From Cochliopodium minus (lineage: Eukaryota > Discosea > Himatismenida > Cochliopodiidae), in the NCBI GenBank assembly GCA_024220525.1, contig JAMYWO010000014.1:243025-307024 (forward strand): a DNA stretch of 64,000 nt, given 5' to 3'. Position 1 is the stretch's first letter, and each line of letters begins with the position of its first letter. The notes beneath the pieces are model-generated. The model was not told the origin of the DNA. It ran no database searches and saw only the letters and a program-made list of their open reading frames with translations. Positions 3,246-33,914 of the stretch are shown one piece after another. The position numbers were made by a program, and so were the translations under genes.

Positions 3246-4861
3246 ATGCGGGAACTGTTTATTTTTCTCCTATTTTTTCTCCTCGCTTCCTTTGTGATTG
3301 AAGTGAGATCTCATATCGTGTTGAAGGAGAATTACTCCAACAGAATCGATCTGATGGAGGGAAAATATTTTTTTTGTTGGAACATCTTGCCCAACTCCAT
3401 CATTGATATTGGAATCATAGCTGAATCTAAATCACCTGTATAACAAAATATTCCCGTTTTTATTTTTGAATCTATTAAAGAGTTCTGTATGTATAAATAT
3501 TCAAAATATAATTTGGATATTGATATATAGTATTCCATTAGTAATATCACATCTATCCATTCAATACTATCGATTTATATTCATCAGCATTATGTGTTCC
3601 CTTTTTATTAATTTCAAAAATTAAAAATATATATTTTTCAGGTGTTGTTTGGAATAGATAATGGAGATCGTATCGAAATGATAATATCTTCATTTCAAAA
3701 TGGAAAGGTATCAATGGAAGAGAAATGGTAAAAAATATTTTAGCTATAAAAAAATAAATAAATAATAATGCTGCATACAAGGATCATCAATTCAAATACA
3801 ATCATAATGAACAATCAAGGTGAGATATTTCACATTGAATAAAATTTTTATATTTTCATTCTCTTCCATTTTCAATTCAGAGGCATCTAAGATCATGGAT
3901 TTTGAAGGTGAATATATGCATGGGTATTTCAATCTCAAATTCAAAAAGAATTTCAACACGATTGGTAAAAAATAAATGACAAAAAAAATAAAAACAAATT
4001 TCAAAAAAAAAAAATAAAAAGATTTGACACTAAGAAAAATAACAAAGGTATAAAATATTTTTTTATATTATTGTTATTTGTGTATTTATTATTTATTCAT
4101 GATTTTAAATTATTAATTTTAATTTAAAAACATTTTTGAAAATTTTTTTTTTAATTAATTTTAAAAATATATTTTTTGTTTATAAATTTTTTTATTTTAT
4201 TTTTATTTTTTAAAAACTTCTAAAGATGATTTTTGGGATCGAAATAAAAGACGAAGAGAACATAGAAGAAAATGTAAATATAATCAAAAGAAACATGGTA
4301 TTCGGACAATTGTCTCCCACGCTGATTCCTTCAGATTACAAGTTTAACTTGACACTGTTTGGAGGAAATTACAAAATGTACTGGAATATTGTCAACCAAA
4401 CCATTTTTGATGTGGGGATTGTAGTGAAAGGGAATGGATGGGTTCAAAAAAAAAATTTCAAATATTAAAAATTAAATAAAATAATAATAAAAATAAAAAA
4501 TAATAAAAAATGAAAAAAAATTTAAAATATTAAATTAAATAAACTAAAAATAATGACAGGTTGGTTTTGGATTGAATAATGGTTCATACATGAATAATGC
4601 AGGTAAATAATTTTTATTATTTTATTTTATTTTATTTTATTTTATTTTATTATTTTTTATTTATTTGTTTCAAAAGATTTTGTTATGGGGAGATTAGTCA
4701 ACAATACTTTTTTGGTTGAGGATAAATGGTCCAAAACAGGCACTCCCATTTTGGACGTGGATTTAGGAGGGAGGGACAACATTTTGGAGTATGGTGGAGG
4801 AAGAAACAACAGCATTACTCAAATCAAATTCAGAAAATATTTAAATACTGGAGATAGATAT
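3246..4861 (+). CDS. Secreted protein with two DOMON-like domains, 3' end lost
   Basis: DOMON domains are beta-sandwich modules that bind haem or sugars in extracellular or membrane redox proteins. Here the start MRELFIFLLFFLLASFVIEV is a signal peptide. Two related halves follow: one with YFFCWNILPNSIIDIGIIAE then VLFGIDNGD, and a second (from about 4226) with MYWNIVNQTIFDVGIVV then VGFGLNNGSYMNNADFVMG and LNTGDRY. The second has the usual DOMON order W-x-x-x, VGFG, A-D-x-V-x-G. All exon joins keep frame at GT-AG sites. After GDRY the gene enters an intron full of ATTTTTT repeat, and the next exon (5053-5113) is ankyrin, so the true 3' end is missing through a probable mis-join. No cytochrome b561 segment is visible. 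Ligand unknown. Confidence 0.65.
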
Positions 4862-4919
4862 GTAAAAATCTTATTAAATTTTTTATTTTTAATTTAATTT
4901 TTATTTTTAATTTCTTATA

Positions 4920-5050
4920 TTTTCAAATTTTTTTTAATTTCTTATGTTTTTATTTTTTATTTTTTATTTTTTATTTTAAATTTTTTATTTTTTATTTTTT
5001 TATTTTTTATTTTTTATTTTTTATTTTTTATTTTTTATTTTTTATTTTTT
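4920..5050 (+). repeat. ATTTTTT heptamer microsatellite
   Basis: Near-perfect tandem copies of the 7-mer ATTTTTT fill what reads as intron sequence between the DOMON gene and an unrelated ankyrin exon. The same repeat lies right of the N at 5114 and left of the N at 27719. Such identical tracts are likely places for assembly collapse or mis-joining. Confidence 0.9.
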
Positions 5051-5052
5051 AG

Positions 5053-5113
5053 TATTTACTTGAAAGTGGTGCAAATCCTAATTATCAAAGAACAAACTCT
5101 ACCAAAACAGCAC
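5053..5113 (+). CDS. Orphan ankyrin-repeat exon (fragment)
   Basis: After a TTTTTTAG acceptor, 61 nt encode LLESGANPNYQ followed by a Thr/Ser-rich stretch and KTA. This matches the end of one ankyrin repeat and the start of the next (LLExGAdpN...G.TaL). It stops at the single N at 5114. It fits neither the DOMON gene before it nor the F-box gene after it, so it is probably a piece of another gene placed here by the assembler. The ankyrin gene at the right end of the window is of the same type, but I find no identical exon there. Confidence 0.55.
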
Positions 5114-5114
5114 N
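5114..5114. other. Single-N assembly join
   Basis: One N separates the ankyrin exon from ATTTTTT repeat. Gene identity changes across it, so it is best read as a contig junction of unknown size rather than one ambiguous base. Confidence 0.85.
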
Positions 5115-5214
5115 TTTTTATTTTTTATTTTTTATTTTTTATTTTTTATTTTTTATTTTTTATTTTTTATTTTTTATTTCAAATTTTTTATTTCAAATTT
5201 TTTATTATTTGTAG

Positions 5215-5761
5215 AGAATTGGGATCATCTCATCAACACAGACTCCCAAAAACCACTGTCAAAAGAAACACCCTCACTCAATGAAAACTTTTCTCTTCCA
5301 GAACAAAGAGGGCTAAGAGTAGCAATATTTACTGAAATATTCAAATACTTGCCCGCCAAAGACACTTTGAACTGTTCACTCGTCAATAAAGAGTTTCTTT
5401 CCGTTTCAAGAAATGATAAAGTTTGGAAATCTCATTTTCAAAGAGATTTTCAGGAAGATTCTCTTTCTAATTCCAGCTTTTCTTCCAAAGTCCCCTTTTT
5501 CGTCTCTTATTACCGTTTTTTAGACCAAAAGCTTGAACTTGAAGCTCTTCTGGAAAAACCTCGCCCTAGAATGATGAGATGTGGTGTAATTTTTTATTTA
5601 TTTCATTTTATTCTTATAATTCATTCTTTTTTTATTTATTTTACCTAAATCATTCCTAAATTTTTTTCATTTCATATTTTATTCATTTCTTTTTAATATT
5701 TTACTTATATTATTTATTTTTTATTTTTTATTTTTTAATATTTTACTTATATTATTTATTT

Positions 5762-5792
<31 letters not shown>

Positions 5793-6128
5793 CTTGTTGG
5801 TCTTTTTATTTTTTAGATTGATGCATTTCCCAGAAACGAACAATTAACAGAAAAACTCACAAACAACGAAATTAAGACGGAAGAAAAGGAGATGGTTGGA
5901 TGTTGTCATGACTCAGTCGAAATAATAGCCCAAAAGTTGTTCTCCAAAAAGTCGTTCATTTCTCTTTCTAAAAAACCATTGTTTGAAGATGAAAACCAAC
6001 TTGAAGAATGGAAGAAAAACTTGGTCAAACAAGTCAGCTTGGAGTGCATGGTTGATGAGATGGAAGAAAATTTGATTGAACATCGTATTTCTGATTTGAT
6101 AGTCTCAAAACTTTTCAAAACTTATTAA
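5215..6128 (+). CDS. F-box protein, 5' end missing
   Basis: The first visible exon contains an F-box: LRVAIFTEIFKYLPAKDT, then LNCSLVNKEFLSVSRNDKVW, the helix pattern that binds Skp1 in SCF ubiquitin ligases. A second exon begins at 5818 after an intron that starts GTAATT at 5586, and runs to the TAA at 6128. It adds a charged C-terminal region (QLEEWKKNLVKQVSLECMVD) with no recognised substrate-binding repeat. The first exon opens with an acceptor (TTTGTAG) and phase 2, so the start codon lies upstream, beyond the N at 5114. It converges on the minus-strand gene ending at 6267. Target unknown. Confidence 0.62.
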
Positions 6129-6266
6129 AAAGGAAATTTAATTTTTTTTTTTTGTAGACATGTCCAAAATTGACAACTTTATTAGCGGATATTAATTTAT
6201 AACTTACAAAATTCAAACTGTTGTAAAATTTTGAACATCTCTATTTTTTTTGAGAAATTTTTTTTT

Positions 6267-9082
6267 TTATTTAAAGATATTAATAAGTAATTTTTTGAAG
6301 GAAGAGAGATAGTTAAAAACTTGGGAGTTGTTCCACTGCCCTAATAAACTTTCATTCTTGTTTTCCAAACTTTTAAAGTTATTCTTTTCTCCAACAAAAA
6401 TCTCAATTCCGTCAAAGTTTTCTTTGGGGTTGGCTTGGACATGTAATTGGAGGTTTTTGTCTTCAAAGTTGAGGATGATGTTGTTTTGGAAAATCTCATT
6501 TTTGAATTCATTTACTTGCGCAAAATTTTGGCATTCATCTGATCTAAAAAAAATTAAAATTAAAATAAAATAATAAAAAAAAAAAAAAATATTACAAGTT
6601 AAGTAAAATGTATTCGCAGAATTTGTTGAGAATAAAGGAGAAACATTCTTCTATGGTGAGATTTTGGAGGTTCTCTCTTTCTATCTCTATGTTGGAGCCA
6701 GTGATTGAAACAGTGATTTCCAAACTTCCAAAAAAATAAAGTTGAAATCCAAAAACATAAATAACATAAAAATAAAAAATAAAAAATAAAAAATAGTAAT
6801 ATAAAAAATAAAAAATTTGAAATAAAAAATTTGAAATAAAAAATTAAATTTAAAAAATAAAAATAAAAAATAAAAATTAAAAATTTTTTTTTACTCTTCA
6901 AAAGTGATTAAATAAAAACAAGAACTCTTGTTCAAAAACTTGTAAGAAAAACTCAAATCAGCAAAACAAGAAATTAACTCCAAAAGCTTCTTCTGGAAAC
7001 TGACCCTGAGGGTGTCGAATTGAAAAATGTGGAGGGTTTCTGTCACGATCTTCTTTTCCCTTTCAAAGTTGACGTTTTTCTTTTGTTTGAGATCTGTTTT
7101 TATTTTCTTTCTCATTTGGTTTTTGAGAAAAAGTTCTATTATTGTTTCATGGCTTTCTGTTTTTTGATAATAAAAAAAAATGAAATAAATCAATCAAAAA
7201 TGTATAAAATAAATATTTTTAAAAAACAAAAAAAAAAAATAAAAATAAGAATAATAAAATTTTAAAAAATTAAATGAAAAAAAATGTGAATAAAATGAAA
7301 CGAAATAAAGTGAATTAAAAAATAAAAAATAAAAAAAATAAAAAAATTTTATGAAGAAAAAAAAATAAACAAAATTTTATTAAAATTAAAAAAAATTTAC
7401 TGTTGGAAGGAACACTAGGATTGAAGAGAGAGGAGTTATTTTTGGCAGAAAAAACAACATCAGCTTCCAAAAATCGGGTAAAGAGAGACTTGTAAGTGTC
7501 AGGCAAAGAATCAGCATTAACATTGGAAGTGATGTTGACCTTCTCCGTATCATTGCTGTTTGTTTCTCCCAAGAAAAAAGGAGAAGAGATGTCGCCCAAA
7601 GAAGATTGCCTTAACTTCTTACCTTGGGAGGAGATTTTCGGAGATTTTTTTTCTCCAAAGAAAGAAAAAGTTCCTGAATTGTCAAGATCGTCCTCATCAA
7701 TCATATCATCCAAATCATCACTTTTATCATCCTTGCTATCTTCATTTTTTTTATCTCCGCTATCTATTTTTTTCAAATCTTTATTTTTACTTTCATTTTC
7801 ATCTTTTTTTTCATTTTCATTTTCATTTTCGTTTTCGTTTTTTTCTTCGATTTCTTCGAATGATCTCTTTTTTTTGCTTCCCTCCTTTTGTGGGTCTTCT
7901 TCTTTCTTTCCTGTCTTCTTCGCTTGCATGTCTTCTTCCACCGTGTTGAATTTGATGTAGAGCTCTTTTTCTTGGAAGGACATCATCGCTGTTTCTCCCA
8001 GAATCGAAATTCCTTCTCCCTCTCTTCCTATTGCTCCTCTTTTTATCTATTTCAAAAAATAAAATAACAAATATGCAAAAAAAATAAATAAAATGAAAAT
8101 AAAAAAAATAAAATGAACAATCACAAAATAAAATATAAAAAATAAAATTATAAATAAAATAAATAAATAAACAAATAAAATAAAATAAAATAAAATGAAC
8201 AAAATGAACAATCACAAAATAAAATTAATTAAAAATAAAATTAAAAATAAATTAAAATAAAATTAATGAAAAAATGAATAAAAAATAAAAAATTTTAAAT
8301 ATAAAAATGAATAATAAGATTGTTTACAATCTCAAAAATGTTGGCAGATTCACTAAAACTGAACAAAGCACACAACAACTGATGAACCTGAAGAGCACCC
8401 ACAGCCACAAAAAAATGTTCCTTCTTGGTGTTGCCAATCTCAATATACTCTTTGACCGAAACTTCCGAAAAACTTCCGAAACGCAGTTTTTTGAGAAATC
8501 CTTTGTTGAGAAACAACTTTAGAGATCCTTCCTTCCCTTTCTCTTTTTCTATATGCAGTGGAATGTTGTCGAAGCATACCACGAAAAGTTGACTGTCTTT
8601 GGCGATTTGGCTGTATTCCGAAAAAAGGTTCCAGCTTCTCATTAAACTTTTCGTTTTTTTATTTTAAAAAAAATTTAAAGTAAAAAATAAATGTTAATTT
8701 AATAACTAATTTAATTTTTATAAAAATCAAATAAATTTATTAATTACAAATAACTGAAAAAATCAACAAATAAAGAAAAAAGATAAAAATAAAAAATAAA
8801 AAATAAAAAATAAATTAAAATAATAAAACAAAAACAAAAAATGAAATTCAAAAAATGTTACCATTGAAGATCTTTGAAATAGTTTTGTTCATTTTTCTCT
8901 ATTTTCTCAACCATTTTCAAAGACTCCTCTTTTAGTTTCTCGGAAGAAGACTTGAGGTTTTTGATTCTCTTGTTGAGTTTGATGGCGTTATCTTCCGTCT
9001 CTTTCTCCACGTGAGGAAATCTCTTTTTGATATGCTCTAATCCCAATCTATTCTCGATAAGGTAACCATCTATTGTTTTCAT
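6267..9082 (-). CDS. Uncharacterised acidic multi-exon protein (possibly Mediator MED17-like)
   Basis: Six exons on the minus strand join in frame: 9082 to about 8861 (MKTIDGYLIENRLGLEHIKK, coiled-coil rich), about 8645-8326, about 8047-7402, about 7162-6899, about 6729-6603 and about 6545-6267 (ending LLINIFK). The third exon carries a low-complexity Glu/Asn/Lys/Asp tract. The start at 9082 is preferred to an upstream in-frame AUG because that would begin with a poly-Lys run. I do not recognise the family with confidence. The order N-terminal coiled coil, central LLCALFSFSESANIFEI, then a late beta-rich region loosely recalls Mediator subunit 17, but this is a weak guess by eye. The short exons and clean splice frames argue that the gene is real. 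Confidence 0.55.
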
Positions 9083-14851: not shown

Positions 14852-15720
14852 TTAGTTATATGTCAATTTATTAACAGTTTTGTTCCATTCAACAACTTTT
14901 GGTAGGTGGTGCACAACCTCAAATATTTTCTTGAGATTAGGTGCCACATCAAAAACAGAAGATGGAACTTCCTTAAAAAAAGGTCTTTCATAAAAAATAC
15001 CAGAAAAGGTTGCATACAACTTAAAATCAGCTATGGACAATTCTGTAATTGAATGACCGTTTGATCCTACTCTCTTTTCAAGGAATCCTAACCATTGCGG
15101 AAGAATTTCTTTGTTGAGTTTTTCCATGAATTGTTTTTTGGTTTCTTCGTTCTTTTCAAAGAGTGCTTGGAAGATTTTTAGCTGAATATCTTCAGCTGCA
15201 TCCTAATTATGAAGATTTTTAAAATAAATCAGAAATTTCAAAAGAAAATTAATTTTTTTTTACAATCAATTCATCAACTTTTGCTGCTTGAAGATTATCA
15301 GTTGGATAAAGCTTTGCCATTTTCTAATTTCAAAAGAAAAAATAAATAAATCTAAATCTAAATTTTCCAGTATTTTGCTTTACACCACAATATCTCAAGA
15401 TAGAATTTGATTGAGCAAGAGTGACATCACCTACAGTCAAGGTTGGAACAGATCCTAACAAGATAAAAAAAATCAAGAATAAATATAAAATATTTTGAAG
15501 AATATTCAATTTATACCATATGGGAATTCTCCTTCTTGTTTTTTCTTTCCAAATTCTGGAAATCCAATTCTAAAATCAAATGAAATAAAACATGGAATTT
15601 GAATCTTTATTTCTTAAATTTTTACCTATCATCTTCAAATTCTATTTGAGAATGAGTGAGAACCAGTCTTGATTCTGCCCTTCCATTAAGATCAAAATAA
15701 GTGATTTTTATTTTGCTCAT
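14852..15720 (-). CDS. Sigma-class-like glutathione S-transferase (array copy 1)
   Basis: Cytosolic GST that would conjugate glutathione to electrophiles. Five exons; the start MSKIKITYFDLNGRAESR at 15720 carries the N-terminal Tyr (Y8) typical of sigma/alpha/pi classes. The thioredoxin-fold part shows FPEFGKKKQEGEFPYG, SVPTLTVGDVTLAQSNSILR (the cis-Pro and the glutathione-binding Q-S) and YCG. The helical C-terminal domain ends KVVEWNKTVNKLTYN. It is the most divergent of three tandem copies. It reads GRAESRLVLTHS where its neighbours read GRGEPSRLALAIG or GRAEPIRLALAIG, and it lacks the GDSTTIADL segment, having SITELSIADF instead. Substrate preference may therefore have changed. Confidence 0.85.
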
Positions 15721-15876: not shown

Positions 15877-16760
15877 TTAATTATATTCGATTTTGTTTTT
15901 AGTCTTGTTCCATTCAACAACTTTAGGAATGTTGTGAACAGTTCCAAAGATAGTCTTGAGATTTGGAGCATTATCAAAAGTAGAGGAGTTGAGATCCTTG
16001 AAAAAAGGAACACCAAAAGCAATACCTGCAAAGGTAGCATACAATTTGAGATCAGCAATAGTGGTTGAATCTCCAACAGAAAATCCTTTGGATCCTACTC
16101 TCTTTTCAATGAATCCGACCCATTGTGGAAGAATTTCTTTGTTGAGTTTTTCCAAGAGTTGTTTTTTGGTTTCTTCGTTCTTTTCAAAGAGTGCTTGATA
16201 GATTTTAGGGAGAACATCTTCAGCTGCATCCTAATTATGAAGATTTTTAAAATAAATTAGAAATTTCAAAAGAAAATTAATTTTTTTTACAATCAATTCA
16301 TCAACTTTTGCTGCTTGAAGATTATCAGTTGGATAAAGCTTTGCCAATTTCTAATTTCAAAAGAAAAAATAAGCATATAATAAATATTTTTTGAAATATT
16401 TTGAAAAATTCTTTACACCACAATATCTCAAGATAGAATTTGATTGAGCAAGAGTGACATCACCTACAGTCAAGGTTGGGACAGATCCTATCAAGATAAA
16501 ATAAAAGAAAATAAATTTGCCAACAAAAAATTTTTATTTTTATTTATACCATATGGGAATCCTCCTTCTTGTTTTTTCTTTCCAAATTCTGGAAATCCAA
16601 TTCTATAATTTTTAAAAAAGGTTCGAAATAAAATTTTGTATTTATTTATTTTGTTTTTTTACCTCTCATCTTCAAATTCAACACCTCCAATTGCAAGTGC
16701 AAGTCTTGATGGTTCTCCTCTTCCAGTGAGATCGAAATAGGTAAGTTTAATTTTGCTCAT
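15877..16760 (-). CDS. Sigma-class-like glutathione S-transferase (array copy 2)
   Basis: Second of three tandem GSTs. The start MSKIKLTYFDLTGRGEPS at 16760 is followed by SRLALAIGGVEFEDER. Exons then carry GFPEFGKKKQEGGFPYG, SVPTLTVGDVTLAQSNSILR and a C-terminal domain with GDSTTIADLKLYATFAG and PKVVEWNKTKNKIEYN. Intron positions match the flanking copies, and some introns are near-identical in sequence, showing recent duplication or conversion. The catalytic Tyr near residue 8 and the Q-S pair of the glutathione site are present, so an active enzyme is expected. It lies 156 bp upstream of copy 1 on the same strand. Confidence 0.88.
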
Positions 16761-17214: not shown

Positions 17215-18082
17215 TTAATTGTATTCAATCTTGTTAACAGTTTTGTTCCATTCAACAACTTTGGGGATGTTGTGAACATTCACAAAAATTTTCTTGAGAT
17301 TTGGAGCATTATCAAAGGCTGAAGAATCAATTTCATTGAAAAAAGGTACATTGAAAGCAATACCTGCAAAAGTAGCATACAATTTGAGATCAGCAATAGT
17401 GGTTGAATCGCCAACAGAGTATCCATTGGATCCTACTCTCTTTTCAAGGAGCCCAACCCAATGTGGAAGAATTTCTTTGTTGAGTTTTTCCAAGAGTTGT
17501 TTTTTAGTTTCTTCGTTTTTTTCAAAGAGTGGTGGAAAGATTTTAGGGATCACATCTTCGCTTGCATCCTATTTTTATTAAATATTTAATATTCTTTGAA
17601 AATTATCATTAATTAACAATCAATTCGTCAACTTGAGCAGCTTGAAGATTATCGGTTGGATAAAGCTTTGTCAATTTCTAATTTCAAAAGAAAAAATAAA
17701 TAAATCTAAATCTAAATTTTCCAGTATTTTGCTTTACACCACAATATCTCAAGATAGAATTTGATTGAGCAAGAGTGACATCACCTACAGTCATTGTTGG
17801 AATAGATCCTATCAAGATCAAAAAAATCAACAATAAATATAAAATATTTTGAGAATATTCTATTTATACCATATGGGAATTCTCCTTGTTGTTTTTTTTG
17901 TCCAAATTCATTGGATCTGAGTCTTTATATATTTTGAATATATATTATTTGATAATAAAATTGATCATTTATGCTTATATTTACCTCTCATCTTCAAATT
18001 CAATTCCTCCAATTGCAAGTGCAAGTCTAATAGGTTCTGCTCTTCCAGCAAGATCGAAATAGGTGATTTTTATTTTATTCAT
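17215..18082 (-). CDS. Sigma-class-like glutathione S-transferase (array copy 3)
   Basis: Third tandem GST. It starts MNKIKITYFDLAGRAEPIR at 18082 and contains SVPTLTVGDVTL-like sequence changed to SIPTMTVGDVTLAQSN, then the helical domain with GYSVGDSTTIADLKLYATF and PKVVEWNKTVNKIEYN, stop 17215. The five-exon structure equals that of copies 1 and 2. Exon 2 differs more from its neighbours (SNEFGQKKQQGEFPYG against FPEFGKKKQEGEFPYG). The short 106-bp divergent region to the kinase gene at 18189 is shared by both genes' 5' ends. Confidence 0.87.
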
Positions 18083-18188: not shown

Positions 18189-21100
18189 ATGAAACTTTCT
18201 TCTAAATTCAAAAAAGTTGCGAATTGGATAGAAGCTAATTCTGGGGGATCAAATACATCATCCAATTTCGTATTCAATCAACAATACATCATCACGACGG
18301 AGAGTGATTGCGAGATAATAGTATCCTTGACAATAAATAATATAAATTTGAAAGGGGGTTTCGTGATATCAAAATCAAAGGGTGAATATTAAGATCGATT
18401 AGATAGAAATACAATAGAGCATTCTATAAAGCAAAAATTGTTTAGATTGAATATATTTATTTTATTTTTTTAAAAGGGGTCAAAAAACAGGTGGAATCAT
18501 TGAAAGATGTTATTGAAAAATGTGAGAAAGAAAGTGTGATAAACGATAAATTGGTGTATCAAAAGAATATAAAGATGAAGAATGCAGATAAATATGTGGT
18601 TGTTCCTTATACACTCAAAGATGGCCAATTGGGAACATATGAATTGGAAATATCATCAGATAATGATCAATTGAAGGTGATAGAACCAAAAGAATTCCAG
18701 AGGAGATATGATATAAGTAAGAAATGAATAGAATAAAATAAAATAATCATTTAAAATTAATTTTATAGGTGATGAATGGTAAATTTTTTTCAATTTAAAA
18801 TTATTTTTGAAAAAAAAAGAAATTCAATTTGATTATTTAATTTATAAAACTAAAAAAAAAATTTCAAAATATCTTAATCATTGAATAAAAGGTTCAGTGC
18901 TACAGCAGGGGGATCTTCTGAATTTTTGTTTAACAATCCCCAGTTTTATTTAGATACACCAAAGGCTTTGACGTGTTACATTATAATAACGATTCTCAAC
19001 AATAACGAAGAGATGAAAAGTAATGTGGGGTTGTTTATCTTAAGACCAAAAGATATGAAGCCAATTTTAGATAACGAAGTGATGGAAGACCAATCTCAAG
19101 TAATATATAAACCCAATTTTGTTTCAGAATATAAAAGTGGAGGCAAAAACAAATTTATTTATTTTTTTATTATTCATTTATTTTATTTTTTATTTTATTT
19201 TTTATTTTATTTTTGTTTATTTATTATTTTTATAATTTTATTTTTTATTTATATTTTTTATTATTTTATTATTTTTTCTAGTTGTTATACCATTGTCAAC
19301 ATTAGAAAATGATAAATTAGTTTTGATTCCTTGTACAGAAAGTGCGGGATGTTTTGCGGAATTTAAAATTACTGTTCTCTCGAATTCGAGACTAAAACTG
19401 GCCGCTTTTGCCAACACTTGCCACAAAATTAAATTGCTTGGAAGTTGGGAGAATGACAGATGTGGTGGGTGTTTAAATTTTGCTACATGGAGAAACAATC
19501 CGCAATACATGTTGTATGTACACGAAAAAGTACCAATAAATATTAGGTAAATATTTTTAAAACAAATTATTTGAATTAGAAATATTTTATCTTTTTATAT
19601 ACTTTTTATTTTCATTTTATTTTCCATTTAAAAAGTTTGTCATTTAGATTTTTTTTTATTCATTTGTATTTTTTAGTAATTAGTTCGTTTTGTATTTTTT
19701 GTATTTTTTTTATTTTAAATTTTTTTTTTTGATTAATTTTGTCATTATTTATTTTTTATTTTTTCTTTTTGAATTATTTTATCTTGTATTTAAAATTTTT
19801 ATTTTTTTATTTTCATTTAACATTGATTTATTTTTTGATTATTTTAATTATCATTTTATTTTTGTAACTTGTAGAATTAAACAAACGAAAGGAGAAAAGC
19901 ACAAAATAGGGTTTTATGTGGCACTCAATGAATACAATACCTCAAAAGTGATGGTGCTGACAACAGACAATCTCGTTGCCAAATCCAATTTTTCAAGCAA
20001 ATCCCTCGTCAAAGCAAGAATGGAATTGGAGCCAAAAGGAAACAATCCTTATGTTCTCATCCCTGTTTGTTTCAACCCTGGTGAGAGCGGAGATTTTGAG
20101 ATTGATATTACTATTATGTCCATTCATTCTTCTAATCCTAAGGCTGCCCTCCAAGTTTATCCTTCCACTGTTACTTGGTATTCCCTTCGTTTTGATGTAA
20201 CTTTTTATTCTTGTTTTAATATTTTATTTTTATTTTTTATTTTATCTTTTTATTTTTTATTTTATCTTTTTTATTTTTTATTTTTAATATTATTTGTTTA
20301 TTTTTCACTTTTATTTTGTTAGGGTGCTTGGAATCATAAGTTATCAGGAGGATGTAAAAATAATGAAACCACATGGCTCAAAAACCCTCAGTTCAATTTT
20401 AAAGTTCTAACTGGTATAAAAAACAATTCAAATCAAAAATGAAAACAAAAATCATCAAAAAAAAATTTTAATTTTAAAACAAAAAAAAAAAAAAAAAGAG
20501 TGTACAACATACATTCTTTTAAAACTTGAGGGAGATTCAACAGAAAGTGTTGGGTAAATTTAAAAAAATTTAAAATTACATTTATTTTTATTTTTTTATT
20601 TATTTTTTATTTATTTACTTTTATTTCATATTTCATATTTTTTTTTTTATTTCAAATTTTTTTTTCTTAAAAAAAGATTTTATGTGGTGAGTGATCAACG
20701 TATTTTGCATCATACTTCTGAGTTAAAAGAAGAAGATCTGAAACATACTAATTTGGTTTCCAAAACTGATTTCGTCAACAGAAATGAAGCATACATAATA
20801 GGTGAGCATTTATTAAAAATAATTAAAAGGAAAAATAAAAATTAATAAAAATAAAATTTTAAAAACAAAAAAAAAATAAAAAAATAAAAATAAAGAAAAA
20901 TAAAAAAAATAAAAATTATTTAATAGCAAAATATCCAACGGGTACATACAAAATTATTCCTACCACATATTCACCGGGCATTCACAAAAAGTTTTCTATT
21001 TATGTGTATTGTGACTCGAAATTCTCTCTAATCAAAGCAGAGTCTGTTGACAATTTGAAAGACAAATTCTCTAAATCGAGGACTGCTGAATGGGAAATGG

Positions 21101-22997
21101 ATGAGTACTCTCTTGATGTAAACAACGCTAAAATTATAGGTAAACATTTAAATTTCTTTTATTTTTAAACAACCTTGATTATTTTAAATATATTTGATAG
21201 ATTAACAAATTTTTTAAACAAGAAATTAATTATTTTGATTTCTATTAAATATTTCTTTAAAAAATTTTTTATTAATTTTCAATTTTTTAAACCTATTATT
21301 TTTAGTGTAAACTTTGATTTTTTAAAATCAACCATAATTTTTGATTTTTTTTCAAATTTTTTTAGACAATTTTTTTTTTTTTTGATGAATTTAGTTAAAT
21401 TTATTTTTTTTGTTTTTTTTTTGAAAGGTAAGGGAGGTTATGGAATAGTTTACCACTCCGTATATAAAGGGAAAGAAGTTGCTCTCAAGAAAGTGAATCC
21501 CAAATTGGTAACCAACAGTGAAAGGCTCACATTGAGGAAAGAAATAGAAATCATGGCTCTTTACAAACATCCTTGTATCGTAAACTTTTTGGGAGCAAGG
21601 GTAACAACAAAAATGAATAAACTGAAAAAAAATTAAATTTGATACATTTTTAGAAATATTTTTATTTTAAATTTATTTATTTTTAATTGCAAAAATATTT
21701 TTTTAATTTTATTTTTCAAATCTTTTTTTTAAATTAATTTGATTTTTTTAAATTAATTTTGATTTTTTTAATTTAATATTTCTTAAATTATTTAACATTG
21801 TTTATTTGAAGTCCTTTTTTGATTCATTTAATTAATTTTGATTTTTTTAATCTGTTATTATTTAATTTTTTTTTTTTAAATTTTTTTAGGTTTCCGACGA
21901 TGATGTGATTTTTATAGTCACAGAATTTTGTGAGTACGGAAGTTTGTCAGAAGTATTACAACAAAACAAGCCCAAACTTGACTGGGTTAAAAAACTCAAA
22001 TGGTCCATTCAAACAAGCAACGGAATGAATTATCTCCATTCACAAAAGCCTGCAATAGTACACAGGTTTTAAAATAAAATTTGTTTTATTTTTTATTTTT
22101 TTTATTTTTTCATTTTTTTTATTGAATTTTTTTATTTTTTTTTATTTTTTTATTTTTTGTTTTTTTATTTTTTTATTTTTTTATTTTTTTATTTTTTTAT
22201 TTTTTTATTTTTTTATTTTTTTTTTGAATTTTTTATTTTTTTGTTTTTTTTTTATTTTTTTTTTTATTTTTTAAAGAGATTTGAAGTCATTGAATTTGTT
22301 GATAGATAAAGAAGAAAACTGTAAAATATGTGATTTTGGATTGAGTAAGTCAACAAGTGGAGAATCCATGAACACTTTTATGGGAACTTTGAATTGGTGT
22401 GCTCCCGAAATACTACGTAAAAAATAAAAAATAAAAAAATAATTAAATAAATAAAATGAAAAGTAAAATTTATTGAATTTTGAGAAAAAATTAAAATTTA
22501 AATAAAATTGAAAAAATCAAAATAAATTCATTTTTAAATTAAAAATTAAATTCATTTTTAAATAAAAAATTAAATAATGAAAATAAATAAATCGAAATAA
22601 TTTTAAAATATATAATTTTCAAAAATATAATTTTCAATTATTAAATAATAAATATTAAATAAATATTTTTAAATTTTCAATTTAAAATTTTTTTTATTTT
22701 TTTTTAGTTGGACAGTCTTTCACTAAAAAAGCGGATGTTTATTCAATGGGATTAGTTTTGTGGGAAATAATAGCACACGAAAAACCTTACTCTGGATGGA
22801 AGGTTCTTGACATAGTGGAGCATATCAAAAACGGAGGTATCCCTGATTACCCCTCTGACAAGTTGGTTGCGGATGGTTATAAGAAGGTCGTGGAGTCTTG
22901 TTTGAAGAGAGATCCCAATGATCGTCCTACTTTTGAGTGGATTGAGAAAGCTTTAAAAACTATTAATCCATTGGATTTTGAAAAAAATAAAAACTAA
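18189..22997 (+). CDS. Calpain-III/C2L-like repeats fused to a protein kinase
   Basis: A long multi-exon gene. The N-terminal half carries repeated beta-sandwich units with the calpain domain III/C2L signature (GG..., W, NPQ-Y/F): SGGSNTSSNFVFNQQYIITT, ATAGGSSEFLFNNPQFYLDT, SWENDRCGGCLNFATWRNNP and WNHKLSGGCKNNETTWLKNP. No calpain protease core is present. The last exons form a full kinase: Gly loop KIIGKGGYGIVYHS, lysine EVALKKV, HRDLKSLNLL, CDFGLSKS, GTLNWCAPEI, DVYSMGLVLWEIIAHEKPYS and a final KRDPNDRPTF, the order seen in tyrosine-kinase-like kinases. The Gly loop is split by the intron joining the two halves (ATTATAG|GTAAGGGAGG), so the fusion is real unless the transcript says otherwise. 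C2L domains bind Ca2+ and lipid; a Ca2+-responsive kinase is inference. Confidence 0.78.
22120..22276 (+). repeat. Intronic TTTTTTA tandem tract
   Basis: Poly-T with an A roughly every 6-8 bases fills the kinase-gene intron between the exon ending IVHR and the exon beginning DLKSLN. It is T-rich on the coding strand, as in all other introns here. Confidence 0.85.
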
Positions 22998-23212: not shown

Positions 23213-26200
23213 ATGAAATTAAAATTTTGTCTTTTGTTTTTAACAATTTTTTCTTTGGGATGTTGCCTATTGAACATAGTTAATTGTACAGATCTACTGA
23301 ATATAGTTGTGGAACCAACAGATACTTATCGATTACAAAACAATATCAATTGTTCTTCTCAAAACATAACCACTATTGAAACTTTTAGAGGTAAATTATT
23401 TTTAATCTTTAATAATCTTTATCAGATCGAAATGTATACGTTTGTATTTTAATTAAATAAAAAAATAAACTCTTTTTTTTATTTTCTTTAATTATTTTTT
23501 ATTTAGGAACTTTGGATGGGCAGGGATTCTCAATAATCTTCAATAATCTCCTGACTGATCAATATTCTGGATTATTTTCAATAGGATCATCTTGTACAGT
23601 GAAGAATTTGACAATATTGAATATAAATGTGAATTCCTCTATCAGCAATGTAGGGATATTATTTGGTACTTGCACTGGATGCACAATAAGTGATGTGATA
23701 ATCAATACAACTTCTCCATCCATAACGTAATAAATAATTAATTTTTATTTTACTGTAAATATATCAATTGATTGAACATTCAACTATCTATTTTCTTCAT
23801 TTCTAATCTATTCCAAAGAAATACAGTTAATGTTGTTGGATCAAGAAATTATATCTCAGTATTTGTTGGAAATCCAAATAATTTGATGATATCAAGATGT
23901 TTGATCCAAAATACGGTTATCTATGCACCAGATAGCGATTATGTTGGATTTTTTGCAGGGTAAAATATTTTTTTCTATTTTTTTTTTTAATTTTTTAATT
24001 TATAAATTAATTAAAAAAGAAATATTGGAATTAATGTGGACATTGATAATTGTCATATATTAGGATTTCCAAGTGACTCTACCAGATCATTAATAACAGC
24101 CTATAATTACATAGGTTAATAAATAAAATTTTAAAACTTTTTCTTTCAATACTTTAAAATGTAAAAGGTGGATTTGGAGGAAGTGGAAGTGGGTATTTGA
24201 ATGTAATTAATAGTGGAATCAGCAATGGAGTGATTTCGGTTAGAAATTTTTGATTTTTTTTTTTAATTTTTTTACATTTTTGATTTTTATTTATTTTAAA
24301 TTTAAATAGTCTTCAATTGGTGATTATGTTGGGGGTATAGCGGGATCTTGTCAGCCTTCAGTTGTGAGTGGTGTGTATGTGAAACCAACCGTTTCAATCA
24401 ATGGAAATAGTAATGTGGGTGGGTTGTTTGGTTACACTGTTAGTTCAGGTGAGCTTTTTAAATAAAAAAAAAAAAATTTTATTTTTAAATTTTTTAAATT
24501 TTTTTTAATATTACAGGAGATTTCAATATAACAAATGTTTACAGCAAAGCTAATATTCTTGGTAAATTTTTACACAACTTATTTATTATTTTAATCTTTC
24601 AAATAAATTAGCCCTAAACGGAGTTGGTGGATTGATAGGGGTAAATATTTGTTGTTATTTTGTTTTTTTGTTTAAAACTATTTTTTTTTTATGAAAAAAA
24701 AAAAGGTTGCAGGAAATGGAATAATATTTATGGAAAACAGTTATTATTCTGGAGTTATGAGTGCTGGTTCAGATGCTGGTTCAATTATTGGTGAACTTTT
24801 AGGTAAAAAATGATTTGAATAATTACTAATAAAGAAAAATAAAAATAATTAATTTTTTTTGGATCAAACAGTGAGTGATTGTAAATTTTCTGGAGTTTAC
24901 TACAATAATGAAACCAATGTACCTGGTATTGGAAGTTCATCACTTATATGCGGTGACTTATCTTCCCCGTAATTTGAAATGTTTTTTTTATTTTATTTTA
25001 AAAACTTTTAAAATTTCTTCTTATTTTTAAATATTTATTAAAGAGAGGGACTAAATTGTGGAGACCTTTTCAACGTTGTATTAAGTTTTGAAAATGACAC
25101 TTGGACAGGAGATAATCTCATTATAGAAGTTCCCTCCACTTATGGAGTTTGCAGCTGTAATAATTCTTGTGTAATTTTTACTCCATCCACTTTACCTCCA
25201 CTAACATTACCTCCATCAACTCTACCTCCGTCAACTCAATCACCTACAATTAATCTTCCTTCATCAGAAACTCCAACAACTTTACTTCCCTCCACAATCA
25301 TTCCCTCTACAACTTTTCCTTCGACGAATGATCCTTCAATCACAACTTCTGTAGTTCCCTCTATAACATCTGCATCAACCGATACTCCTTCATCAGATAT
25401 TCCATCTTCCGATATTCCANNNNNNNNNNNNNNNNNNNNNNNNNNNNNNNNNNNNNNNNNNNNNNNNNNNNNNNNNNNNNNNNNNNNNNNNNNNNNNNNN
25501 NNNNNNNNNNNNNNNNNNNCAACTTCTGTAGTTCCCTCTATAACATCTGCATCAACCGATACTCCTTCATCAGATATTCCATCTTCCGATATTCCAACAA
25601 CATCTTTCCCTTCAACAAATATCCCCTCCAGTTTATTCCCATCAACCAATATTCCTTCATCCGAAATTCCAACAACTTTACTTCCATCAACAGTATTACC
25701 TTCTACTAATTATCCTTCTACAACATCTATTTCCACTAATTCTTCTTTAAATTGTTTATATATTGTTCCTGATTGTGAAAAATGTGGAAAAGATGGTCTA
25801 AAAGTGGAAGATTCTTCTCTTTTCAACATTCTTTGTGTTGAAACTTCCATTGGTTGGGTTTATTTGTTTTCTGGTAAAAATAATACAAACAACATCATAA
25901 TTGATGGAAATATTTCGTTAAATACCACTGTATTGATTGAAGGAAATTTAAATTCAACAAAAAACTCAACAATTTTGATAATTTTAAATGAAAATAATTT
26001 GAATGACAAAAACAATCCACTTTTTAATGTGAAAGGATGTTTGGATTTACTTGGAAATATTTCTTTGATTTTGAATGAAAGACCCAAAAACACTTCATCT
26101 AATGGAGTTCTTCTTTTCATTTATAATTGTACTCAAACTTCTTCTTTCAAAGAATCACAATTATCTTTAACACCAACTTATAAAAAAAAGGAATGTGATA

Positions 26201-26517
26201 AAATTGATTCGTCACTTGTTAATCAACAAAACTCTCTTTCTGTTTCTATTTCAACAAGTTTAAATGCAAATTGTAAATCTAGTTTGGGATTGATCATTGG
26301 TCTTTCTGTTGGAATTCCTTTACTTTTGCTTTTCATTGTTGCTATTTCTCTTTTTCTGATGAGAAATATTTCAAAGAAACAAAACTCTGAGTATATAAAC
26401 ACACACAACAATCAAAACAATAATTTTAATGAGAATCAATCTTTTGAACAAAATACAAAATGGAATTCTTTTTCTACAAAATCAAAAATTGAAAATGAAA
26501 TGAAGGAAATCAACTGA
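23213..26517 (+). CDS. GLUG-repeat surface protein with PST stalk and transmembrane anchor
   Basis: Type I membrane protein, paralogous to the gene at 609-3065. Signal peptide MKLKFCLLFLTIFSLGCCLL at 23213. Exons 23213-23390, 23507-23726, 23819-23959 and from 24020 onward join in frame and give GLUG-type repeats (SGLFSIG, VGILFGTC, VGFFAG, VGGIAG, VGGLFGY, VGGLIG). Conserved GTLDGQGF aligns with the paralogue's GIFDGKGF. A repetitive Pro/Ser/Thr stalk spans about 25177-25740 and is interrupted by 100 Ns with duplicated flanks. It is followed by a Cys- and Asn-rich region with many N-x-S/T sites, a hydrophobic helix (LIIGLSVGIPLLLLFIVAIS), a basic stop-transfer (RNISKK) and an Asn-rich tail. 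A role in adhesion or coat formation is inferred from architecture only. Confidence 0.78.
25343..25596. repeat. Exact 77-nt duplication flanking a gap
   Basis: The 77 nt at 25343-25419 recur exactly at 25520-25596, directly either side of the N run. The real sequence is probably one copy, with the gap caused by unmerged overlapping contigs. The stalk length of the GLUG protein is therefore overestimated here. Confidence 0.9.
25420..25519. other. 100-N scaffold gap
   Basis: Run of exactly 100 Ns within the Pro/Ser/Thr stalk of the GLUG protein. The length is a placeholder and does not keep the reading frame by itself. Confidence 0.95.
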
Positions 26518-28973: not shown

Positions 28974-30998
28974 ATGGTGAATGTTGTTGGTAAAAATAGA
29001 AAATCAAATAATCAAGAGATAATTAGAATATAAAAATCGTTTCGAAAAAAAAAGTTTTTATAAATATTTTAACAAAATATACCTTAAAGATCCAGGAGAT
29101 TTAGATAGGTCAACCAATTTTAAAAATTACAATCATCATAATATTTATCATAATTTTAAAATTTTTTATATATAACAAAAAGATTGTTCCTTATTAGCAT
29201 GAGTGTGACAGTATTTTTAATGCAAGCAGGATTTTGTAAAGAAACACAGAATTCTCACAAAAAATAAATTTTTTTAAAAACTTGATTATAGGCATGTTGG
29301 AATCAGGGTGAGAATATCTTTGAATGGAAACATCTCTTTATTTAAATATAAATTTGTTAATTTTTTTTTTTTAAAAAGATGTGTTACTAAAGTTAACACA
29401 GATACCATCATCTTCAAGGTAATGATCTATTCATCTCATCTCTTTTAATTCTCAATTTAAAATCCTAGTGTGTGCTCGACATATGCACGGGTGCTCTTGT
29501 CTATTGGTCAGTAGGATTCATGTTTGCCTTTGGAGGAGACTATAACAATAATTGTGGCAATTGTAATGGATTCATAGGTGTAGAAAATCCATTTTTGATA
29601 GGTTTAACAGATAAAGCCTTTATCTTTTTCTTCTTTGGTAAAATTCCAACAAAATAATCATTTTTCAACAAAATTCTAAATCTTATTCTTTATGAATCAA
29701 ACAAAACAAGAATTCTGTTTTTGTGGTGCATGTAAAGATTTTCCCATCTCCTCAAATTTTTTTGTTTTGAAATTTTCACAATTAATTTCATCATTTTTTT
29801 TTTTATATATATTATTTAAGCCTCAACTATTGTTTCCGGAGCAATTGCAGAACGTATGAAATGGCAAGGTAAAAATCAAATTCAATATAATAATTTTTCA
29901 AATCAATTTGATTTTGATTAAATATAATTATATAATTTGCATATGAGAGCACATAATTACAATTCATCTTAATCATATCAACCAAAATCTAAACTACATT
30001 TAGGATATATCTTGCATGTTATCTTCATGTCAGGATTGATTTTTCCAGTAGTAGCACATTGGTTTTGGAGTCCAAACGGATGGCTGTCCATCACGGGAAA
30101 AGCAGAGAAAGTACTTTTCCAAAGAGGAGCAATGGATTACGCAGGATCAGGAGTGGTGCATCTCGTAGGAGGATCATCCTCATTCATTGCAGCAAAAGCA
30201 GTGGGTTACAGAAACGAGTTTTTGACGGATGAAGACAGAAGAACTGCAAAGAATGCAAAGTTGTATGTGCCCAGGTTTGAGTGGGATCCCAAGAATACTG
30301 TTTGGAGGGTCAACGAGCTTCCTCCTAGTGACAAAAACATTGCTACTCTTGGTGTATGGCTCTTGTGGTTTGGATGGTAATAAAAAGAATCACAAAAAAA
30401 TCTTTAATTTTTTTTTTTAGTTTTAATTAATAAATTTCATAAGGAAATTTCTTTTTTTAAATTATAATTCATTTTTATATTAATTTTTTTTTTTATTTGT
30501 AGGTATGGTTTCAATTGTGGATCCATCATTGTTTTAAATGGAAAAACAGGGCTTATTGGAAGAGTCGCAATCAACACAACTTTGGGAGGATCTTCTGGCG
30601 CTATCATTGCTATTACTATTGGACGTATAATGAATCGTGACCAGCTCTACTTGAAATACGTAAAAAATAATTATTTTTTATTTTAATTGTTTTTTATTTA
30701 ATTTTTATTTTTTATTTTTATATCGCATTTTTTAATTATTTTTAGAATCTTGGAGACCTTAATAATGGTGTACTTGCAGGTATTGTTTCCACCACTGGAA
30801 ACTGTGCTTATACTCATCCATGGGCATCCATAGCGATAGGAGCAGTGGGAGGATTCATTTTCAAGCTTTCCTCCTCTTTCTTGTTGCATCCCAGAATAAG
30901 GATTGATGATCCCTTGGATGCTTCTCCTGTCCATGGTTTTTGTGGAGCATGGGGACTATTTGCAAATGGTTTGTTTGCAGGTAAAGAAAATAATTTTA

Positions 30999-31042
<44 letters not shown>

Positions 31043-31474
31043 ATTTTTTTATTTTGTATTCTATTTTTATTTTGATTTATTTTTTAGCTCCTAATTTAAT
31101 GAATCAAGTTGCTCAATCATCCGCAAGGGGAGGTGGTCTCTTTTATGGCTATGGACTCAACTTAATCATCCAAATCATTGCCATTTTATGTATTATTTTC
31201 TGGGTAGTGGCCTGGACAGTTGTTTCATTTGGAATAATGTAAAAATATTTTTTTAATTTTTTATTTTATATTTTAAATTTTTTTTAAAAGGTACTTGTTC
31301 GACAGGAATAGAGGCACCAACGCTTATTTCTTTGTTAGAGGTCAACAAAACTTTGGTTTGGGATTCGGATATCATGATCCAGACAACATCACTACCAAAT
31401 TTACTAACGCTAATGAAGGAACAACAGGTTGGATCAACCCTAACGATATCCTTCTCAACAGTGTTGATGATTAA
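28974..31474 (+). CDS. Ammonium transporter, Amt/Mep/Rh family (complete copy)
   Basis: Integral membrane channel or transporter for ammonium. The first exon MVNVV (ATG 28974) splices to DPGDLDR, as in copy 2. Later exons give LMQAGFCMLESG (split Cys codon T|GC), CVTKVNTDTIIFK, WSVGFMFAFGGDY, FIGVENPFLIGL and IVSGAIAERMKWQGYILHVI. GSGVVHLVGGSSSFIAAKAV carries pore His 1, LWFGWYGFNCGSI follows, and PLDASPVHGFCGAWGLFANG carries pore His 2. The twin-His pore of Amt proteins is thus intact. An insert after the first His, of about 45 residues (RNEFLTDEDRRTAKNAKLYV...), is longer than the usual GPRxGRF loop. The C-terminal tail ends DILLNSVDD. All introns are short and GT-AG. A 154-nt stretch is identical to copy 2. 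Confidence 0.9.
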
Positions 31475-31719: not shown

Positions 31720-33914
31720 ATGGTTGGAATTGTTGGTGAATATATTTTGAGATATTCAAATTGATTATTAATATTTATACTTAAAAATAGATCCGGGCGA
31801 TCTTGATAGAACTTTTTTGATTGTGATGGCTATTTTTGTCTTTGTGATGCAAAGTGGCTTTTGTATGTTGGAATCAGGGTAACCCAAGTTTAACAAAAAA
31901 AAAGATATCAATATTGAATTATTTTCAATTGACATAAATTACTTAACTTTTTTTTATTTTAGATGTGTAACAAAAGTGAATATAGATACCATTATCTTCA
32001 AGGTAAATTATATTTTTCTTCTTTGCAAATTTATGAATTCCTTCATGTTAAAAAATAAAATCACAAATATAAATTATCTTTTGTTAAAAATATTAGTCAG
32101 TGTTGGATATATGTACGGGAGCTTTAACTTATTGGTCTGTTGGGTTCATGTTTGCCTTTGTAAAAAAAATTTCTAAAAAAAATTTTTGAGGATTTTAGTT
32201 AATAATCAATCTTTCTTAGGGTGGTGATTTCAATTCGAATTGTAAAAATTGCAATGGATTTATTGGTGTAGAAAATCCATTTTTGATTGGATTGACAGAT
32301 CTAGCATTCATCTTTTTCTTTTTTGGTAAACTTCCTTCCCACCTTTCAAATATAATTTTTTTATTTTATAACGAATTATTTTTATTTGATGTCATAAATA
32401 GAATTCTGCTTTTGTTCTGCATGTATACCTCTTTCTTTAATTGTTAAATAAGGTTGTTGAAAAAAATTTTGATTTTTTTTTTTTCTCAAAATTATAGCAA
32501 CGACAATCGTTTCGGGCGCAATTGCAGAACGTATGAAATGGCAAGGTAAAAAAATATAATCTTTTGCGATATTAAACAAATCTATCATCCTTATTAATCA
32601 TAATTTTGAATTATTTAATACTGATGATATCCAAATAAACACAAATTAGGATATATCTTGCACGCAATCTTCATGTCTTCTTGGATGTTCCCAGTGGTAT
32701 CTCACTGGCTCTGGAGCACCAACGGCTGGCTCTCCATCACCAGCACGACAGGAAACGCGCTCTGGCAAAGAGGATCAATGGACTTCGCAGGATCAGGAGT
32801 GGTGCATCTCGTAGGAGGATCATCCTCATTCATTGCAGCAAAAGCAGTGGGTTACAGAAACGAGTTTTTGACGGATGAAGACAGAAGAACTGCAAAGAAT
32901 GCAAAGTTGTATGTGCCCAGGTTTGAGTGGGATCCCAAGGAGTCTGTTTGGAGGGTCAACGAGCTTCCTCCTAGTGACAAAAACGTTGCTACTCTTGGTG
33001 TGTGGATTTTGTGGTTTGGATGGTAATAAAAAGAATCACAAAAAAATCTTAAATTTTTTTTTTTAGTTTTAATTAATAAATTTCATAAGGAAATTTCTTT
33101 TAATTTTATATTAATTTTTTTTTAATTTGTAGGTATGGTTTCAATTGTGGTTCTATCATAACTTTGAATGGAAAAACAGGGCTTATTGGAAGAGTCGCAA
33201 TCAACACAACTTTGGGAGGTTCCACTTCTGCCATTGTATGTATTGCCATTGGACGTATAATGAATCACGACCAGTTGTACTTGAAATACGTATAAAATTT
33301 TTTTTTTTTTTGATTTCTTTGTTATTTTTTATTTTTTATTTTTATATTTTGTTTAATTTATTCTTTATTTTTTTATTTCTTTGTTATTTTATTTTATTTT
33401 ATTATTTTCTTATTTGAATTTATTGTATTTTTAGAATCTTGGAGATCTTAATAATGGAGCACTAGCAGGTATTGTATCAATCACAGGAAACTGTGCTTAT
33501 ACTCATCCATGGGCATCCATAGCGATAGGAGCAGTGGGAGGATTCATCTACAAGCTTTCCTCCGCTTTCTTGTTGCATCCCAAAATAAGAATAGATGATC
33601 CCTTGGATGCTTCTCCTGTCCATGGTTTTTGTGGTGTTTGGGGTGTTGTTGCAAATGGTGTTTTTGCAGGTAAAGAAAATCAAATTTTATTATTATTTTT
33701 TTTTTAAAAAAACTTTAATTTTTATTTTCTATATTTAAATTTTTTTTTTTTTTTAGTAATTATCTTTTATTTTAAATTTATTTTTGTTTGTTAATTTTTT
33801 TTCATTTTTATTCTTTTTTATTCTTTATTTTGAAAAATTTAGTTCCTCATTTTTTGGATGAAGCAGCTTTGTCTCCACAAAGAGGGGGAGGTATCTTTTA
33901 CGGTTATGGACTCA
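31720..33914 (+). CDS. Ammonium transporter, second tandem copy, cut at a contig join
   Basis: Close paralogue of the gene just upstream (245 bp spacing). It starts MVGIV at 31720, splicing to DPGDLDRTFLIVMAIF, then FVMQSGFCMLESG, CVTKVNIDTIIFK and GGDFNSNCKNCNGFIG. The pore histidines are kept in GSGVVHLVGGSSSF and SPVHGFCGVWGVVANGVF. The last exon ends abruptly at the N at 33915, inside GGGIFYGYGL. Its continuation is almost certainly 12448-12893, because the last 77 nt here equal 12371-12447 and the phase continues. It differs from copy 1 mainly in the external loop before W-S (STNGWLSITSTTGNALWQ). Having two copies may give different ammonium affinities, which the sequence cannot show. 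Confidence 0.88.

Follow-up and report, generated by a model that had tools for sequence, protein, structure and literature searches.

The gene at 18189-22997 of the forward strand is predicted to encode a single protein in which four calpain-type C2L domains, placed one after another, precede a protein kinase of the tyrosine-kinase-like (TKL) type, and its presence was confirmed at the level of the predicted coding sequence. This C2L-kinase gene lies in a window of 64,000 nucleotides from Cochliopodium minus (C14:243025-307024), which is the whole stretch of DNA that was analysed and to which all coordinates refer unless another contig is named. The right end of the window is the end of the contig (307024), and the assembly comprises 44.65 Mb in 598 contigs. 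A universal SSU stretch of 23 bases is absent from this assembly when up to 1 mismatch is allowed. The N-terminal two thirds of the protein would be formed by four C2L beta-sandwiches in tandem. The main features of the locus are the following:

17983..18082, minus strand: start of a divergent GST-like gene, placed by eye; its C-terminal exon matches GST_C_3
18189..22997, plus strand: whole gene, four C2L units followed by a TKL-type kinase, 14 exons, 845 aa (splice model, Pfam)
18189..18697, plus strand: C2L unit 1 (aa 1-138, cut by the authors), the most divergent, with GG but NQQY; Calpain_III 28.9 bits
18698..19424, plus strand: C2L unit 2 (aa 139-277, cut by the authors), containing the 10-nt exon 18769-18778; Calpain_III 31.2 bits
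19425..20181, plus strand: C2L unit 3 (aa 278-420, cut by the authors), with the full GG...W..NPQY; Calpain_III 45.2 bits
20182..21066, plus strand: C2L unit 4 (aa 421-562, cut by the authors), with the full GG...W..NPQF; Calpain_III 56.7 bits
20927..21139, plus strand: exon 10, with the end of C2L-4, the linker and the first kinase residues (..EWEMDEYSLDVNNAKII), stop-free (translated splice model)
21140..21427, plus strand: intron 10, dividing the codon of G587; its retention leads to a stop at 21166-21168 (splice model)
21124..22940, plus strand: protein kinase domain (Pfam aa 582-827), with the motifs GKGGYG, VALKK, RKEIEIM, HRDLKSLN, DFGLS and APE

Gene prediction and genomic surroundings

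The splice model was obtained with a script that admits only GT-AG introns and keeps one frame open, with junction ranges set by hand, so the GT-AG ends of the introns are imposed and offer no independent proof. Four open models were found for 18189-22997 (+), which disagree on two splice sites, the intron 3 acceptor and the intron 4 donor. The model chosen, a prediction of 14 exons and 845 aa, retains a conserved tryptophan (SDEWFSATAGG) and excludes a stretch of low complexity; since it was picked to keep this tryptophan, the residue is not independent evidence either. An exon of only 10 nt at 18769-18778 (+) preserves the frame in the chosen model and gives two bases of the codon for W148, in C2L-2. 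With regard to base composition, the coding sequence has a GC content of 35%, the 13 introns range from 4 to 19% and the exons from 31 to 40% (for the 13 of 14 exons with printed values). An in-frame TGA is located 12 bases upstream of the ATG. There are no Ns in 18189-22997, and elsewhere in the window single Ns occur at four places, in addition to a gap of 100 Ns at 25420-25519.

Upstream of the gene, three tandem GST-like copies were recognised by eye on the reverse strand (14852-15202, 15877-16230 and 17215-18082), and the C-terminal exon of one of them matches GST_C_3 with an E value of 9e-17. Downstream, 23213-26517 (+) appears by eye to encode a secreted-looking protein, the first part of which has only a sub-threshold Pfam match; it includes a Ser/Thr/Pro-rich stretch that holds the 100-N gap and a transmembrane-like stretch near its end. 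Two tandem ammonium-transporter-like genes are found at 29973-31072 and 32628-33704 (+), one exon matching Ammonium_transp at E 6e-16 and the other copy being similar by eye, and a RasGEF domain is encoded at 48295-48960 (-; Pfam E 7e-47).

Four C2L units and no protease core

The preliminary description of this DNA, made from the letters alone, had proposed an array of calpain-III-like repeats fused to a kinase, and had suggested a profile search of the spliced protein as a check. This search returned both families, Calpain_III (PF01067) with an E value of 6.4e-40 in four stretches and Pkinase with 9.9e-58. All four units, when scored individually, lie above 21 bits, the cut-off for Calpain_III (28.9, 31.2, 45.2 and 56.7 bits for units 1 to 4), and the Pfam stretch of unit 4 spans aa 424-543, that is, 20191-21009. 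Searched alone against the PDB, the array matches calpain-7 (E 1.1e-5) and calpain-2 (E 6e-4). A profile built from the four units together with a C2L from a local calpain gives 1.8e-9 against m-calpain, a value less clean than the single-sequence ones because the fifth sequence helps the profile.

The signature GG...W..NPQ(Y/F), which had been attributed to all four units, is complete in units 3 and 4 and incomplete in units 1 and 2. The GG pair is found in 4/4 units and NPQ(Y/F) in 3/4, unit 2 having GG and NPQF without the W and unit 1 reading NQQY.

The claim that no papain-like protease core is present also holds. Peptidase_C2 (PF00648) was not among the four Pfam families retrieved at E up to 1 with the whole 845 aa, and the classical C2 domain (PF00168) was absent both at E up to 1 with the whole protein and at E up to 10 with the units. 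Moreover, 106 bases upstream of the ATG of the kinase gene, at 18082, the divergent GST-like gene begins on the opposite strand, and a protease core is therefore not hidden directly upstream.

A complete kinase of the TKL type

The kinase domain extends over aa 582-827 according to Pfam and carries all the hallmarks of eukaryotic kinases, namely the glycine loop (GKGGYG, from 587), the VAIK lysine (VALKK, 604), the glutamate of helix alpha-C (RKEIEIM, 623), HRD (HRDLKSLN, 702), DFG (DFGLS, 722) and APE (to 747). Since these motifs are intact, the predicted enzyme looks active.

Among the best 60 of 2697 PDB matches, the strongest single-domain structure is that of CTR1 (3ppz; 148 bits), a plant MAP3K of the TKL group, followed by MAP3K12 (135) and TAK1 (131) and then by MLK kinases, TNNI3K, 7t6f (named 'Tyrosine-protein kinase'), B-Raf (119) and ABL1 (118). 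The entry ranked first among these 60 is an EGFR chain, and it owes this rank to two copies of 89 bits in one chain, which sum to 180. CTR1 thus stands clearly above the tyrosine kinases, but lower in the ranking the margin is small, B-Raf and ABL1 differing by a single bit. The catalytic loop in the TK group reads HRDLAARN or HRDLRAAN, a form that this kinase, with HRDLKSLN, does not have; we take HRDLKSLN to be the form of the TKL group. The motifs, the Pkinase match and the position of CTR1 agree with the earlier assignment of a complete kinase of this type, and 'tyrosine-kinase-like' is right as the name of the group to which the predicted domain belongs. With regard to substrate, Ser/Thr activity would be the default guess, and some Dictyostelium TKLs are described in the available text of PMC1420674 as having tyrosine or dual activity.

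Possible role of the array

We hold with about even confidence that the product is an intracellular TKL-type, MAP3K-like kinase in which the four-C2L array acts as a Ca2+-independent module for docking and autoinhibition. The array would bring the kinase to a docking site, either on a protein partner or in association with a membrane, and, by means of the linker of about 38 residues, would keep it off until docked, without direct sensing of Ca2+ by the array itself. Autoinhibition through such a short linker is probable by analogy, general kinase practice being the sole argument. Docking or targeting is preferred to Ca2+ sensing because the acidic loop and clusters of acidic residues are missing from the units, and because calpain-6 and the kinesin KIN-E provide precedents. 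In calpain-6, as described in PMC6823460, VEGFA is bound by a domain III that is likewise without the acidic loop. In Trypanosoma brucei, as described in PMC5993322, the two domain-III-like domains of KIN-E are required for this protein to reach the flagellum. Against the docking view, its domain-III-like part did not bind the cargo FLAM3, and its authors suggest that it may bind Ca2+ and lipid.

The preliminary description had assumed that such domains bind Ca2+ and phospholipid, and that they would here tune a kinase as they tune a protease elsewhere, which amounts to a sensor kinase that is switched on when Ca2+ and membrane lipid bind to its C2L units. A parallel in the way of working is protein kinase C, where C2 domains bind Ca2+ and membrane lipid and activate the kinase, so that a C2-type fold regulates a kinase; unlike the protein described here, protein kinase C is an AGC kinase and not a TKL, and C2L is a Pfam family separate from C2. 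All units are members of Calpain_III, and in the classical calpains, according to passages of PMC10380737, domain III binds Ca2+ and is bound by phosphoinositides, while an acidic loop ties it to the protease until Ca2+ neutralises the loop. The possibility of Ca2+ or lipid binding that the authors of KIN-E allow for its domain-III-like domains (PMC5993322, available sections) also speaks for a sensor. Against it, the acidic loop of this electrostatic switch, as found in domain III of m-calpain, is an insertion relative to the profile of the units and is absent from it, the densest acidic 12-mer has four acids in each unit, with the acids unclustered, and the Pfam C2 family does not appear at E up to 1. 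Tuning by Ca2+ and phospholipid is therefore unsupported, and we regard a sensor kinase of this kind as possible and on balance unlikely, although other Ca2+ or lipid sites may exist in C2L domains. Furthermore, the premise that C2L domains tune a protease is not general, given that KIN-E carries two domain-III-like domains on a kinesin (PMC5993322, available sections).

It is decidedly unlikely that the array is a structural spacer, which would serve only to extend the kinase or to pair it as a dimer and would sense nothing. Identity to unit 4 is 19-31% for units 1-3, which as a set are no closer to it than the C2L of a local calpain (26%), and a tree of the four units with seven C2L pieces of local genes leaves the units of the kinase gene ungrouped, with several long branches and 0/8 inner branches well supported; this low conservation and lack of resolution would fit a spacer. 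All four units nevertheless still score as Calpain_III, and low identity does not disprove a function.

The junction of array and kinase

The junction falls within exon 10, which is translated as KYPTGTYKIIPTTYSPGIHKKFSIYVYCDSKFSLIKAESVDNLKDKFSKSRTAEWEMDEYSLDVNNAKII and contains the end of C2L-4, whose Pfam stretch reaches aa 543, then a linker of 38 residues and the five residues that open the Pfam kinase stretch; the alignment with CTR1 begins upstream of that stretch, also within exon 10. Intron 10 (21140-21427) interrupts the codon for G587, the glycine with which GKGGYG begins, so that the glycine loop is split by the connecting intron, as had been noted before.

This arrangement might also allow the locus to yield two further products besides the fusion, with regulation through the choice of product. 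If intron 10 were retained, translation would end after the array, and a start at the in-frame ATG at 21097, within exon 10, would give the kinase on its own. The stop at 21166-21168 and this ATG are both in frame, yet early stops are expected by chance in AT-rich introns and a single ATG before the kinase is weak evidence, which makes regulation of this kind highly doubtful. That two neighbouring genes were read as one, or joined in the assembly, is extremely improbable: the script imposed the GT-AG ends and the window has its 100-N gap and four other places with single Ns, but the gene itself is free of Ns, its introns are far poorer in GC than the printed exons, and exon 10 alone encodes, stop-free, parts of both domains, so the fusion is hardly the product of merging two genes, as the preliminary description had argued.

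Occurrence of the combination in the genome

The combination of C2L and kinase was found once in the 44.65 Mb genome, in an exon-by-exon search in which 30 of the 135 kinase matches were examined. These 30 matches were cut out as loci and, with two longer refetches (L076 and L077), gave 32 loci for comparison. In a tblastn search with the array, five of them match and are pieces of the C2L-kinase gene itself, while none of the other 27 (25 places) matches at E up to 1; in 25 of these 27, the flanks on either side of the kinase match are about 1.5 kb at most. Conversely, a search with the kinase in 11 overlapping C2L loci, from four contigs, gave a single match, with an E value of 0.38, that is, chance. 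As controls, the kinase finds 32/32 kinase loci and the array finds 11/11 C2L loci, the latter only weakly (best E 2e-5 to 0.01), so a divergent C2L beside a kinase could be missed.

A genome-wide search for Calpain_III at E up to 10 gave eight exon-level matches on five contigs, three on C14 (the C2L-kinase gene), two on C419 and one each on C399, C45 and C19. Peptidase_C2, at E up to 0.1, gave 20 matches on C256, C19, C399, C105, C114 and C288. Because both families match on C399 and C19, these two loci are taken as calpains. On C45 and C419 there was no Peptidase_C2 match at E up to 0.1, but the C45 locus is broken by an N and simple repeats and the C419 locus runs off its contig, so that either may still include a protease part. 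The latter (L021, reverse strand 52-2562) shows about three C2L-like units by eye in an array that leaves the contig end, and two of the four pieces tested exceed the Calpain_III cut-off, the other two having no match. At L020 (C45, ~4400-6500), pieces of a C2L gene with a His/Ser-rich linker are found next to genes that by eye are tandem and F-box-like, the first exon of the C2L gene being broken by a single N and AT repeats.

The closest other kinase found in this genome, with 40% identity, belongs to L076 (C6:188600-192900), a putative ankyrin-TKL gene which, unlike the C2L-kinase gene, has ankyrin repeats in same-strand upstream exons. Elsewhere, L077 (C158, 1925-4300) has in one open frame matches to a kinase, an F-box and WD40 repeats, together with a sub-threshold PB1 match, an architecture reminiscent of Dictyostelium MEKK-alpha and no more than a slight pointer to an amoebozoan.

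Comparison with known proteins

CTR1 (PDB 3ppz) and other Raf-like or MAP3K TKL kinases share with the C2L-kinase the type of kinase and its C-terminal position; their N-terminal parts are not known to be C2L. Calpains of the CysPc-C2L(-C2L) type have C2L units, also in tandem (PMC3563603, available text), whereas the C2L-kinase is without CysPc and has a protein kinase instead. The same survey distinguishes 41 calpain types, and no fusion to a protein kinase is mentioned in its main text, where the word 'kinase' occurs four times, as adenylate kinase, guanylate kinase (twice) and protein kinase C; as the survey concerns calpain genes, genes without a protease core may fall outside it. KIN-E (PMC5993322) resembles the C2L-kinase in that domain-III-like units in tandem are joined to a non-protease enzyme. 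It differs in having two of them, at the C-terminus of a motor protein that also has an importin-alpha-like domain. In Entamoeba histolytica, EHI_146330 is listed in PMC3149018 as a 'calpain large subunit domain III-containing protein', a name that refers to domain III and not to a protease.

No fusion of C2L and kinase was found among the best-ranked matches in the open-access literature, in agreement with the earlier remark that the architecture did not seem to have been described. The Dictyostelium kinome paper does not use the word calpain in its main text, and its domain figure is in the supplement. Against viral and prokaryote contigs, C2L-3/4 gave no confirmed relatives, a result that says little, and a query of C2L-4 with the kinase matched 41 phage records, the best eight of the 41 matching the kinase part alone (query 176-423).

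Implications

The association of C2L and kinase looks unusual, while the parts and the general plan are familiar. The TKL kinases of Dictyostelium are known for their many accessory domains, so the acquisition of a new N-terminal module by a TKL kinase is a known evolutionary route in that organism, and the C2L-kinase is new in its combination of domains but not in principle. There are likewise precedents for C2L outside active proteases in the kinesin KIN-E and in calpain-6. As a more speculative idea, to which we attach a low probability, the protein could be the founding member of a subfamily of kinases that arose when a calpain regulatory module moved whole onto a MAP3K-like kinase, and a single C2L-recognised partner or membrane site could then address both calpains and the kinase. 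If the docking role of the array is borne out, the C2L domain of calpains would be a docking module that can be carried to proteins far removed from proteases, a kinesin and now a kinase, and the C2L-kinase would offer a way to study C2L alone, with no protease to confuse the assay.
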